DNA of 36,201 bases, from IMG/VR virus record IMGVR_UViG_3300040960_002045, positions 1-36,201 of that record, one strand, 5' to 3'. The number at the start of each line of letters is the position of its first letter. The stretch's first letter is position 1. The notes beneath the pieces are model-generated. The model was not told the origin of the DNA. It ran no database searches and saw only the letters and a list, made by a program, of their open reading frames with translations. A program made the position numbers and the translations under genes. Below, one piece after another: positions 10,525 to 15,626 of the stretch. This DNA is from a virus.

Positions 10525-10726
10525 TGTAAATGTAAAAAAGTTGTAAATGTAAAAATAATGTAAATGTAAAAATAATGTAAATGTAAAACAATTGTAAATG
10601 TAAAACAAATGTAAATGTAAAAAGAACGTAAATGTAAAATGAATGTAAATGTAAATTGATTGTAAATGTAAAAAGTTTACATATGTAAATCAGTTGTAAA
10701 TGTAAAAAGTTGTAAATGTAAAAAAT
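10525..10726 (+). repeat. Left iteron array: 12 copies, 17-bp period
   Basis: Twelve copies of a TGTAAATGTAAAA core begin at 10525 and repeat every 17 bp (10525, 10542, 10559, 10576, 10593, 10610, 10627, 10644, 10661, 10678, 10695; the last at 10711, 16 bp on). The copy at 10678 is degenerate. An A/T-rich stretch lies just to the left (10380-10490). Arrays of 17-22-bp iterons next to A/T-rich DNA are typical replication-initiator binding regions of plasmids and phages. A matching array in the opposite orientation lies at 12461-12540. Confidence 0.9.
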
Positions 10727-10754
10727 TAGTTAACACGCAAAACGCTAGCAAAAC

Positions 10755-11217
10755 AGCAAAACGAGCGAAAAAACCGCCATTTTTGAAATACCAGGGCACA
10801 CGCTACCAGGGCACACGCAACTAGGGCACACGCAACTAGGGCACACGCTACCAGGGCACACGCTACCAGGGCACACGCCATCAGGGCACACGCTACCAGG
10901 GCACACGCCATCAGGGCACACGCTACCAGGGCACACGCTACCAGGGCACACGCAACTAGGGCACACGCAACTAGGGCACACGCAACTAGGGCACACGCTA
11001 CCAGGGCACACGCAACTAGGGCACACGCAACTAGGGCACACGCTACCAGGGCACACGCTACCAGGGCACACGCCATCAGGGCACACGCTACCAGGGCACA
11101 CGCTACCAGGGCACACGCTACCAGGGCACACGCTACCAGGGCACACGCTACCAGGGCACACGCTACCAGGGCACGAGCAACCAACTTTTAAATGTCAAAG
11201 AGCGAGCAAAACGAGCG
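10755..11217 (+). repeat. 13-bp direct repeat bracketing the minisatellite
   Basis: AGCAAAACGAGCG occurs at 10755-10767 and again, identical, at 11205-11217, on both sides of the 15-bp tandem array. A partial inverted copy is at 11226-11239. Direct repeats at the borders suggest that the array was gained or amplified as a unit. Confidence 0.6.
10794..11174. repeat. 26-copy 15-bp minisatellite
   Basis: The core GGGCACACGC recurs every 15 bp without a single slip from 10794 to 11169 (26 starts; the last copy is truncated). The remaining 5 bases have only three versions: TACCA, AACTA and CATCA. Two leftward frames stay open through the array: one reads ALVAC with versions differing by synonymous changes or Val to Met, the other reads VCPGS/VCPSC/VCPDG. 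Neither has an ATG, and upstream codons reach stops quickly. I treat it as a non-coding tandem repeat, possibly a DNA-packaging, partition or RNA-structure element. Confidence 0.9.
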
Positions 11218-12650: not shown

Positions 12651-12820
12651 AAAAAGGGGGGGTATACCCTAACCAAACGGTCGGGCACAGAGACCAAGTC
12701 GCAAGGGCAAAAGAAAAAATACGACCTATTTTTCACTTTTGTAAAAAACTTTAAGTCAAAGTTGTCGGAATCGGTGTATAACTAATAGGGGCATATCGTT
12801 CCAAATGACATTTCAGCACG
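12651..12820 (+). promoter_or_regulatory. Probable start region of the rightward late transcript
   Basis: A 170-bp stretch without genes between the operators and the structured RNA. It holds a 10-bp palindrome GGGTATACCC at 12660-12669 and a TATAAC hexamer at 12776-12781 with only poor -35 matches upstream. A phage-specific promoter read by the sigma-like factor is possible. Otherwise I see nothing in it. Confidence 0.35.
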
Positions 12821-13091
12821 GTGGGGATCGACCGGACGATTCCAGTCTAGCGATAGACGATCCGAAAAGGGGCTGCACCTGGGCACTGAGTGACGACTTC
12901 TCAACCCGCTTGCAGATCGGCAAAAACCGACCGAGGGCAAAGGCACAATGAGGATTGGCGAACGGAGAAGGCAAACAAGTGACCTCACTCCTCGCGACGC
13001 AACGAGGCTTGAGACCTCGTCGAGGGAAGCTTACCAGGCTTTCCTAAAAGTCGATCTATGCTCTCCCTCGGACAAGGCACAACCAACCCCA
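12821..13091 (+). ncRNA. Structured leader RNA upstream of the tRNA-like domain
   Basis: About 270 bases, more G/C-rich than the surroundings, without a credible gene and with many strong helices. GTCTA-GCGA-TAGAC is a GNRA-capped hairpin (12845-12858) inside a helix GGATCG/CGATCC (12825-12830/12858-12863). CTGCA/TGCAG pairs at 12873-12877/12911-12915. TCGG/CCGA pairs at 12917-12930. ACGAGG/CCTCGT pairs at 13002-13020. CGAGGGA/TCCCTCG pairs at 13021-13027/13064-13070. The series ends directly at the 5' end of the tRNA-like domain. No match to GOLLD, ROOL, tmRNA mRNA-like domain or intron signatures is evident to me. It may be one RNA with the downstream element or its processed precursor. Confidence 0.6.
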
Positions 13092-13161
13092 GGGGGAAAA
13101 CTAGATTCGACATTATCCTTCGGGATAGTGGACGTGGGTGCGAATCCCACTTTCTCCACCA
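13092..13161 (+). ncRNA. tmRNA-type tRNA-like domain lacking the mRNA-like part
   Basis: A 70-nt element. The acceptor stem GGGGGAA (or GGGGAAA from 13093) pairs 7/7 with TTTCTCC (13151-13157) and has the G3-U70 wobble that alanyl-tRNA synthetase recognises, then ACCA (13158-13161). After the stem, AGATTCGAC (13103-13111) matches the tmRNA D-loop signature GGNTTCGAC at the canonical 14-nt offset. CATTATCC/GGATAGTG (13111-13118/13123-13130) is helix P2, closed by TTCG. Then GGACG and a T-arm GTGGG-TGCGAAT-CCCAC (13134-13150), as in tmRNA 3' ends. In tmRNA, P2 leads to the tag frame and pseudoknots; here it closes on four bases. T-loop position 55 is G rather than U, and the first D-loop G is A. 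The exact 5' end is uncertain by one base. Confidence 0.75.
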
Positions 13162-13168
13162 ATTTACA

Positions 13169-13333
13169 ATGAAAGAAATAGACATAGAAGTACAACAACT
13201 CACACCCGATCAGGCTCGGGCCTGGTGTGATGCGTTGCGGGTGGACTGGCGAAACTACATTGACGAAAAAGCGTCAAAGCCGGAAACTTGGGTAAACGCC
13301 TTGCAGAGGAGGGCATGGGAATCAGAAAAGTGA
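13169..13333 (+). CDS. First late gene, 54-residue hypothetical protein
   Basis: Begins MKEIDIEVQQLTPDQARAWC and ends with a helix ALQRRAWESEK. The ATG is only 7 nt after the encoded CCA of the tRNA-like RNA, so 3' processing of that RNA would give a nearly leaderless mRNA. It overlaps the HNH gene by 19 nt. A small helical protein before the packaging genes; no family recognised. Confidence 0.6.
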   Translation: MKEIDIEVQQLTPDQARAWCDALRVDWRNYIDEKASKPETWVNALQRRAWESEK

Positions 13334-13647
13334 TGCCTCGCTTAAACCTTAAAAGCCACTCAAGGCGAAAGGGTAAACCCATCGGATATAAGGAGTCGCC
13401 CAGAACTGATGTCGAAGCAGTGTCGATTCGGTCCAGTAGCAAGTGGACTAGGCTATCGAGACAAATCCGTAGAGAGCGCCCGATCTGCGAGGAGTGCCTT
13501 AGTAAAGGTGGACCGCTAAAACCAAGTCAGGAAGTGCATCACATTGTCAAAGTTCAGAGTAATCCAAACCTAGCATTCGATCCGGCTAACCTAATGGCCC
13601 TTTGTAAAGAATGTCACTTAGAGATTGAAAACAGAGAAAATGGCTAG
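13315..13647 (+). CDS. HNH endonuclease of the packaging module
   Basis: A 110-residue protein with a basic N-terminus and a classic HNH core: CEEC, then QEVHHIVKV, then a loop with NLMALCKECH. HNH proteins of this type sit directly before terminase in many HK97-like phages and assist genome cutting with the large terminase. I use the ATG at 13315, preceded by GAGGAGG, although the spacing is very short; TTG at 13288 and ATG at 13333 are alternatives. Its stop overlaps the TerS start by 8 nt (ATGGCTAG). Confidence 0.88.
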   Translation: MGIRKVMPRLNLKSHSRRKGKPIGYKESPRTDVEAVSIRSSSKWTRLSRQIRRERPICEECLSKGGPLKPSQEVHHIVKVQSNPNLAFDPANLMALCKECHLEIENRENG

Positions 13648-14014
13648 ACCACAAAAACTTGTAACCGACTACGCTCAAATCGAGAAGCTTTCCGAGATTG
13701 GCTGTAGCGACGAAGAAATCGCCGGAGTTATTGGCGTGGGAAAGCGAACATTTGTCCGAATGAAACAGCGAGACGACGATCTGGTTTTGGCATTGGATAG
13801 AGGTAAAGCTAACTTAAACGTAAAACTTAGGCGATTTCAGATTGAGATGGCTCTGAGTGGATCGGTCCCAATGCTTATACACTTGGGTAAGACGGTTTTG
13901 GGCCAGGGCCAGCCAAAGATCGAAGAAGCAAAGGAAAACCCATTGGCACAGTTTTTGCCAAGAGCCGAAACGCTAAAGAATTTACCTAAATCTGCGGATG
14001 AGCCGAGCGACTGA
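13640..14014 (+). CDS. terS: Terminase small subunit
   Basis: A 124-residue protein beginning MARPQKLVTDYAQIEKLSEI, with a helix-turn-helix (GCSDEEIAGVIGVGKRTFVR) that would recognise the packaging site, a central oligomerisation helix, and a C-terminal tail of Pro/Glu character. The ATG at 13640 overlaps the HNH stop by 8 nt and fits the family start better than the upstream TTG. It overlaps TerL by 17 nt, as is usual. Confidence 0.85.
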   Translation: MARPQKLVTDYAQIEKLSEIGCSDEEIAGVIGVGKRTFVRMKQRDDDLVLALDRGKANLNVKLRRFQIEMALSGSVPMLIHLGKTVLGQGQPKIEEAKENPLAQFLPRAETLKNLPKSADEPSD

Positions 14015-15626
14015 ATATGCTCAATCAATTGTCTCGGGCGAAGTCCAGGCATGTAGATGGATTAAGCTAGCTGCCGAAAGGCATATGGGCGATCTGAAGC
14101 GATCAGACGTGTACTACGATCTCGATGAGGAAGATCGTCGCTGCGGATTCATCGAGAACATTTTAACGCTCGAGGATGGATCTCCTTTCCTGCTCGAGCC
14201 TTGGCAAGCTTTTATAGTCGGATCGATATACGGCTGGAAATACGATCAAGATGATCGCCGCAGATTCAGGAATGCCATGATCTTTGTTTCCCGCAAAAAC
14301 GGAAAATCCGCTTTATTGGCTGCTATTATACTGTCGTCGCTGGTACAGGATGGCCAGTGCTATTCCCAGATGTTCGCGGTTGCTTCGGATCGCGGTCAAG
14401 CTACGCTGCTTCGCGACTACGTTTCTGGCTATATAAAGCGATCTGAACACTTGTCCGAAATTCTCGATGTGCAGACTTGGCTAACCAGGAACAAACTCAC
14501 CGATACGGTGTTCAAGGCGTTGCATGCCGATCATCGTCGCCTTGATGGATTAAACCCTGCTGTAGTTGTCTTTGATGAATTACATAGCCAAGAGGGACCG
14601 GAGTTAGACGACGTCATAAACTCGTCCTTCGGATCTCAGCCAAACTACTTATATGCCAAGATCTCAACAGCCGGAGAGTTTGGCAGGGAGAAGCCAGCTA
14701 TGAAGCAAAAAGACCTGGGCGAGAAAGTTCTGGAAGGAGTAGTCGAGCTGGATGACTATTTTTATTTGAACTATACTATCGACAAGGGCGACAAGTGGGA
14801 TGACCCGAGCATATGGCCAAAGGCTAATCCGAATCTAGGCGTAAGCAAGAACCTAGATTACATGACCGCCCTAGTAGATGTGGCTAATGAGATTCCACAA
14901 AAGGTCTTGGATTTTAAGACCAAGCAGCTAGATGTATGGATAGAGGCTTTCGATCAGTGGATCGACTCGCAGCGTTGGGATGAGCTAAAGGGCGACTTTG
15001 TGTGGGAAGATTTGCAAGGATGTAAAGCGTGGCTAGGGATCGACTTGGCTCGTGTTCGCGACATATCTTCCGTAGTAGCGGTAGTTCAAACCGATCCCGA
15101 TGAACCGCTAAAGATTTGGGGAAAGCATTTCATACCAAACGACGACATTGAGAGAAGAACTAGGCATGACAAGGTTCCTTATGCCGTTTGGCGTAACCAG
15201 GGCGATATCGTGACGACTGATGGCAATACAACCGACTTTGATGCGATATTTGAAACGATAATGCAATGGAGCGATCATCTAGAGATCCAAGAGATCGCCT
15301 ATGACAGGCATTTCTCAGCCGAGCTTGTCCAGAGACTGTATAACGAATCGCTCGAGCTTGTGCCGTTTGGACAGGGTTTTATCTCTATGAATGACGCGGT
15401 TTGTGGCTTAGAAAGGCTGCTGCTTGGCAAGAAAATGCAGCATAATGGCGATCCAGTCCTTTCCTGGGCGTGTTCAAACACGATTTTGGCCACAGATCCC
15501 GCAGGAAACCGGAAAATGGACAAAAAACGCTCAAAAGAGAAGATTGACCCGATGGTAGCCCTCGGAATGGCGATTGCTAGATCGCAGGACAGCATCGAAG
15601 ACGAAGGACCGCAAATTTACGTTTAA
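13998..15626 (+). CDS. terL: Terminase large subunit
   Basis: A 542-residue DNA-packaging motor. ATPase: Walker A SRKNGKSA (98-105) and Walker B VVVFDELH (189-196) with the catalytic Glu following Asp. The C-terminal nuclease begins around GIDLARVRD (347-355) with Asp349, the first metal ligand of the RNase H-like fold. Its length and the position after HNH/TerS are those of HK97-type terminases (Terminase_1 family). It ends before a leftward terminator. Confident. Confidence 0.96.
   Translation: MSRATEYAQSIVSGEVQACRWIKLAAERHMGDLKRSDVYYDLDEEDRRCGFIENILTLEDGSPFLLEPWQAFIVGSIYGWKYDQDDRRRFRNAMIFVSRKNGKSALLAAIILSSLVQDGQCYSQMFAVASDRGQATLLRDYVSGYIKRSEHLSEILDVQTWLTRNKLTDTVFKALHADHRRLDGLNPAVVVFDELHSQEGPELDDVINSSFGSQPNYLYAKISTAGEFGREKPAMKQKDLGEKVLEGVVELDDYFYLNYTIDKGDKWDDPSIWPKANPNLGVSKNLDYMTALVDVANEIPQKVLDFKTKQLDVWIEAFDQWIDSQRWDELKGDFVWEDLQGCKAWLGIDLARVRDISSVVAVVQTDPDEPLKIWGKHFIPNDDIERRTRHDKVPYAVWRNQGDIVTTDGNTTDFDAIFETIMQWSDHLEIQEIAYDRHFSAELVQRLYNESLELVPFGQGFISMNDAVCGLERLLLGKKMQHNGDPVLSWACSNTILATDPAGNRKMDKKRSKEKIDPMVALGMAIARSQDSIEDEGPQIYV

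Follow-up and report, generated by a model that had tools for sequence, protein, structure and literature searches.

Trans-translation is almost universal in bacteria. The standard tmRNA of bacteria and phages (RF00023) combines an acceptor stem carrying G3-U70, a reduced D loop with UUCGAC, helix P2, and a T arm; the element described here has all of these, but lacks the tag frame and the pseudoknots. A tRNA-like domain (TLD) is also common to the permuted two-piece tmRNA (RF04321), as found in the marine phage Melnitz (PMC9004378), whereas the order of parts in our element is unpermuted. The single phage case of a tag-less form in the literature that we searched is mycobacteriophage DS6A, whose tmRNA is listed as 'TLD only' (PMC4131195, table 2; PMC11915505; Mao et al. 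2009, cited there). Set beside our element by its description, it is likewise phage-encoded, with little beyond the TLD and no tag frame. PMC4131195 and PMC11915505 report that a DS6A-like TLD-only molecule inhibits tmRNA in E. coli in both chargeable and unchargeable form, perhaps through titration of SmpB. The 2025 tmRNA database lists 79 phage tmRNAs, 9 'standard, no CDS' forms, and 72 'permuted, no CDS' sequences (PMC11915505), the last of which are taken to be mitochondrial. The tag-less tmRNAs of jakobid and other mitochondria resemble the phage element in being a charged TLD without an mRNA domain that relies on SmpB from elsewhere, as the phage RNA presumably would; they differ in being organellar, and the phage P2 is closed by one continuous hairpin. 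CDS-less tmRNAs of about 65 bp from the Mallomonadaceae are also compact, unpermuted TLDs, but are known from plastid genomes and as two sequences (PMC11915505). The literature searched contains no report of tag-less phage tmRNA as a widespread family. An earlier note on this DNA knew of no described tag-less tmRNA in a phage; DS6A is such a case. The TLD-only tmRNA is therefore already known as a kind; new here are the scale (over 130 distinct sequences with several architectures, against one phage), the covariation, the spread of hosts, and the cassette behavior.

The window, by which we mean the whole stretch of 36,201 nt that was analyzed, is a tailed-phage virus record with TerL, portal, capsid, and tape-measure genes. 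Its TLD is intergenic, upstream of a short ORF followed by HNH, TerS, and TerL genes (Table 1), and is present in all six close relatives whose contigs cover the site. Read directly, it runs GGGGGAA AACTAGA TTCGAC [ATTATCC TTCG GGATAGT] GGAC GTGGG TGCGAAT CCCAC TTTCTCC ACCA. The 7-bp acceptor stem with G3-U70 is completed by A73 and an encoded CCA, and the stemless D loop with UUCGAC leads into P2, GGAC, and the T arm, an order that RF00023 matches from end to end. The 306 model positions skipped in this match (47.9 bits; cut-off, 47; E = 4e-16) are the entire mRNA-like part. The minimum-energy fold consists of exactly P2, the T arm, and the acceptor as read; because its energy is modestly unusual (z -2.0) and too weak a criterion alone, comparison with relatives was used as the main evidence. 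The model that gives the family score in Table 1 was built from viral relatives, the window copy (L001) included. The 5' end lies at 13093 by the Rfam match and at 13092 by relatives with GGGGGAA/TTCCTCC, with a G5-U68 pair in the window copy.

Table 1. Features of the TLD and its surroundings in the window
Feature	Position	Strand	Evidence and remarks
Conserved structured leader upstream of the TLD, about 275 nt	12815..13090	+	Compensatory pairs in close relatives
Whole TLD-only tmRNA, 70 nt, CCA encoded	13092..13161	+	RF00023 over model 1-374; family model, 57.6 bits; six close relatives
Acceptor stem, 5' strand, including G3 of G3-U70	13092..13098	+	Pairs with 13151-13157; G3-U70 in 134/134 relatives
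Stemless D-loop region AACTAGATTCGAC; 'AG' where 'GG' is usual	13099..13111	+	Direct reading; alignment of relatives
Helix P2, 8 bp (13111-13118 with 13123-13130), UUCG loop at 13119-13122	13111..13130	+	Fold; still paired in the close relatives L032 and L069 despite wholly replaced stem sequence
GGAC linker joining P2 to the T arm	13130..13133	+	Direct reading; RF00023 match
T arm, stem of 5 bp, loop UGCGAAU, G instead of U55	13134..13150	+	Fold; RF00023; relatives
Acceptor 3' strand TTTCTCC, A73, and CCA	13151..13161	+	Direct reading; RF00023
Short ORF 3' of the TLD	13169..13333	+	Followed by HNH, TerS, and TerL (13288-15626); order common to G001

A tag reading frame with a resume codon was sought within the window TLD and is absent: the UUCG loop closes P2, and its 4 nt make such a frame impossible. 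Pseudoknots between the P2 strands, also sought there, have no room in the 18 nt that separate TTCGAC from GGAC. As a phage-encoded TLD with no tag frame, the element belongs with the TLD-only tmRNAs. Two other classes were considered and rejected. A tRNA (RF00005) would have a D stem and an anticodon arm, and the window gave no RF00005 match over the cut-off and no tRNA in ARAGORN; a permuted tmRNA, in which the 3' acceptor piece comes first and the 5' coding piece second, scored 19.6 bits against a cut-off of 47. Judged by its sequence, 13092-13161 thus encodes a complete tmRNA TLD of a tailed phage, without tag frame or pseudoknots. The earlier note had proposed such a phage-encoded, tag-less domain. 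Its 7-bp acceptor with G3-U70 and encoded ACCA and its 5-bp T arm agree with the direct reading and the fold, its UUCG-closed P2 without tag frame or pseudoknots agrees with the fold and the gap in the RF00023 match, and the proposal as a whole is upheld by that match, the fold, and the strong covariation described below. Of the searches that it suggested, the Rfam tmRNA covariance model was positive; ARAGORN found neither tRNA nor tmRNA in the window.

The leader has 78 predicted pairs, 3 of which show compensatory changes in five sequences, against 0 in all slid controls. It matched nothing in Rfam over the cut-off and is confined to close relatives. We considered whether it might be a relocated tag domain and rejected this, on the grounds that it has no tmRNA match, is absent from the more distant TLD phages, and stands beside a P2 that is closed within the TLD.

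Compact TLDs of this kind are found in many viruses. A strict pattern (ATTCGAC, a short gap, and a T arm) matched 91 loci in viral contigs, 80 of which fold as compact TLDs under a filter of at least 6/7 acceptor pairs; nearly all of the 80 have 7/7. With a relaxed pattern, 91 of 93 more loci among the matches listed were compact TLDs, so that the verified total is a lower bound of at least 171 loci in viral contigs, plus one in a phage contig binned as a bacterium. Both patterns fixed several core bases and so missed more divergent forms. A similar strict pattern that also required TCCA was run on 84,980 bacterial and archaeal species and gave 38 loci. Only one of these was compact (L134), on the contig just mentioned, which has TerL and portal genes of phage type; of the other 37, nearly all were the 3' ends of ordinary full ssrA genes, and no compact TLD on a bacterial chromosome was found with this pattern in those species. 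Five isolated phages carry the element: the Streptomyces phages pSt2308, LuckySocke, and BRock, Pontimonas phage phiPsal1, and Stenotrophomonas virus Jojan60. All five copies exceed the RF00023 cut-off, and at none of the five sites is a tmRNA annotated. Sequence matches to the compact TLD also occur in GiJojo and Alone3. These elements reveal an annotation gap, in that ARAGORN misses 173 of the 176 loci, while Rfam detects most of those sampled. In Jojan60 (L261), a short hypothetical CDS that may be spurious is annotated over the TLD (2389-2529).

Covariation was assessed on 134 distinct compact sequences, from which 80 representatives were drawn at 80% identity, with shuffles as controls. 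Single-linkage clustering chained 126 TLDs into one group, and greedy representatives were used instead; as the sequences share ancestry, the shuffle statistics are guides rather than exact probabilities. P2 is paired in 79/80, 76/80, 73/80, 72/80, and 67/79 representatives at positions 1 to 5 (shuffled means 34, 38, 33, 37, and 32, respectively), and acceptor positions 4-7 and T-stem positions 1-3 are paired in 79 or 80 of 80, above the shuffles. All variable stem positions covary across the 134 sequences. The compensatory changes in acceptor, P2, and T stems that the earlier note looked to as support are therefore present. G1-C72, G2-C71, and G3-U70 are constant, the last in 134/134. Whereas U70, C71, C72, and A73 were set by the search pattern, G1-G3 were left free, and an A3 would have passed the filter; the constancy of TTCGAC, GGAC, U70, and A73, which the pattern imposed, is not independent evidence.

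The D and T loops also vary together. Sequences with GG in the D loop have U or C at T-loop position 2 and those with AG have G, with no exception among GG and AG sequences (71 vs 8, Fisher p 4e-11 at 80% identity; 27 vs 4, p 3e-5 at 70%, where the AG type comprises four lineages); L184 has neither GG nor AG. These positions correspond to what we take to be the G18-Psi55 contact of tRNA, and from their covariation we infer that the L-shaped elbow is retained. The span between TTCGAC and GGAC ranges from 12 to 38 nt, which is too short for pseudoknots. Where P2 is short, it is a simple hairpin; among the longer forms, many are built of an outer stem, then an A-rich internal loop, and within it a CC..GG hairpin. 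L304 and L330 are larger still, at 94 nt in all and without CCA, which is encoded in 60 of the 134 distinct sequences. As a separate observation, the P2 loop of L006 (3234-3318; also L015 and L079) reads GCA GCG GGT GGT GCC GCG TAG, a possible frame encoding AAGGAA followed by a stop, which may be due to chance.

Phages do have full tmRNA genes, and Streptomyces phage Riptide has both a full tmRNA (W06 94862-95130, tag ANSKFAFALAA) and a degenerate-looking compact copy without UUCGAC (L264, near 2001-2056), so one might suppose that the compact TLD is a full tmRNA that has decayed by loss of the tag and is now drifting. Against this, even where TerL is at least 96% identical, in the window group, P2 has changed from CATTATCC-UUCG-GGATAGTG to CGTTTGC-GAAU-AGCAAACG with pairing retained. 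This rewriting and the strong covariation over 80 divergent representatives refute decay for the family, and we give it hardly any credence. Instead, the covariation shows, as far as alignment can, that the tRNA-like fold is under selection, with the alanine identity pair and the elbow contact retained and no tag frame present.

The surroundings of the TLD differ among phages. Ordinary tRNA genes lie on the same stretch at about 30 of the 176 loci, some of them 1-7 nt away; other loci precede TerL (in class A and in the window group), an MCP gene, or a portal gene. The element is optional in two wider groups, occurring in 42/65 TerL relatives by covariance model (a count that replaces the 27/67 of a script scan) and in 17/77 MCP relatives. 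In the MCP group it sits between a terminator-like hairpin with a T run and the pre-MCP region, and in several relatives without the TLD this hairpin is joined directly to the pre-MCP region. Absence from otherwise collinear relatives, which the earlier note had held against its own reading, is thus real in two distantly related phage groups; we read it as the mark of an optional cassette rather than of an artifact. TANNNT boxes 5-8 nt 5' of G1 are enriched (18 observed vs about 5 expected), suggesting that transcription begins at the TLD in part of the family. In that part, which includes one actinophage group, the element resembles an optional cassette with transcription of its own. No TANNNT box precedes G1 in the window copy, whose RNA is probably cut from a longer transcript that continues into the HNH-TerS-TerL genes.

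Position just 5' of TerL, MCP, or portal genes is frequent, and in L305-L308 a tRNA-Thr follows the TLD nearly without a spacer, as might be expected of a processing mark, that is, a tRNA-like element whose cleavage by RNase P and RNase Z would separate late transcripts and which would have no role in translation. We think this improbable: a plain tRNA would suffice, the enriched boxes argue otherwise, and G3-U70, which processing does not require, never changes, in contrast to the freely varying acceptor positions 4-7.

SmpB was sought in 31 records of TLD phages and found in none, with 10/10 bacterial controls positive; these phages would therefore need the host SmpB as partner. The same set of records bears on the idea that the TLD is an attP copied from host ssrA. 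The 3' ends of ssrA do occur in phages, next to a tyrosine integrase, in Gordonia phage PantheRoc (L265) and Tsukamurella phage TPA4 (L266), where they are likely attP. However, such an integrase is present in 1/31 compact-TLD records, 36 kb from the TLD, compared with 2/2 adjacent in these attP controls; the window has none (no PF00589 match), and an att site needs neither the 5' half nor a covarying P2. An attachment site is accordingly a very remote explanation.

The remaining readings place the RNA in translation. In the one that we favor, the host AlaRS would charge the phage TLD RNA with alanine, and host SmpB and EF-Tu would bind it and carry it to stalled ribosomes. There it would compete with host tmRNA for SmpB and for the ribosomes themselves, so that trans-translation would be lowered or short-circuited during infection and no tag would be added; some actinophage TLDs would seemingly do so from a promoter of their own. 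For the window, we consider it somewhat probable that a TLD-only tmRNA of a tailed phage is alanylated by the host, recruits SmpB and EF-Tu, and acts as a competitor of host tmRNA (we infer the mechanism). We put forward more tentatively, as slightly short of an even chance, the general statement that many unrelated tailed phages carry an optional, partly separately transcribed tmRNA decoy that is alanylated and captures host SmpB together with stalled ribosomes, so that tagging is switched off or bypassed during infection. The suggestion of the earlier note, that the RNA may be alanylated and enter ribosomes or compete with host tmRNA, fits the invariant G3-U70, the covarying elbow contact, and the published inhibition.

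Several findings count against a decoy. Many relatives lack the element. Riptide and the L178 contig (G019, 124 kb), which has a compact TLD at 46486-46567, also have a longer tmRNA, which is odd for a pure inhibitor; that of L178 is 392 nt long (77588-77979). A pure SmpB sponge needs no charging, so the invariant G3-U70 demands more than titration. As charging is dispensable for inhibition in E. coli yet G3-U70 is never lost, we think that the phage function includes ribosome entry beyond titration, and this keeps alive the main rival, tag-less rescue. Here the charged TLD, with host SmpB and EF-Tu, would enter stalled ribosomes, the nascent chain would move to its alanine, and another factor would resolve the complex, leaving the protein unmarked for degradation. 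The invariant identity pair implies that charging matters, as would be expected of peptide acceptance more than of a bare sponge. Many copies stand beside late structural genes or tRNAs, where support of translation would help, and a rescue role is inferred for mitochondrial forms without a tag frame (PMC11915505). Nevertheless, without a resume codon the ribosome would have neither template nor stop codon, and the sole experiment reported, in E. coli, is one of tmRNA inhibition (PMC4131195, PMC11915505). We regard tag-less rescue as unlikely, although well ahead of a mere processing mark. As for the L178 tmRNA itself, the tag that ARAGORN assigns to it looks unusual.

Thus, viruses may use a tag-less TLD RNA to block or short-circuit host ribosome rescue. 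Its occurrence in no fewer than 171 viral contigs and in five isolates, with covarying stems and near late genes or tRNAs, suggests deliberate management of ribosome rescue by phages, and the general decoy, if true, would be a common and overlooked viral control of this process in bacteria. Named phages cultivated on Streptomyces or Pontimonas account for four of the five isolates, so the question is testable now.

Two further observations concern the window and its kin. The class A phages G002, G003, and G004 have parts of the replication module and tail-fiber genes in common with the window; their packaging and head genes are unrelated to those of the window, and all three carry a TLD. On the minus strand of the window, a repetitive ORF composed of ALVAC units (10726-11184) is probably a tandem DNA repeat rather than a gene.
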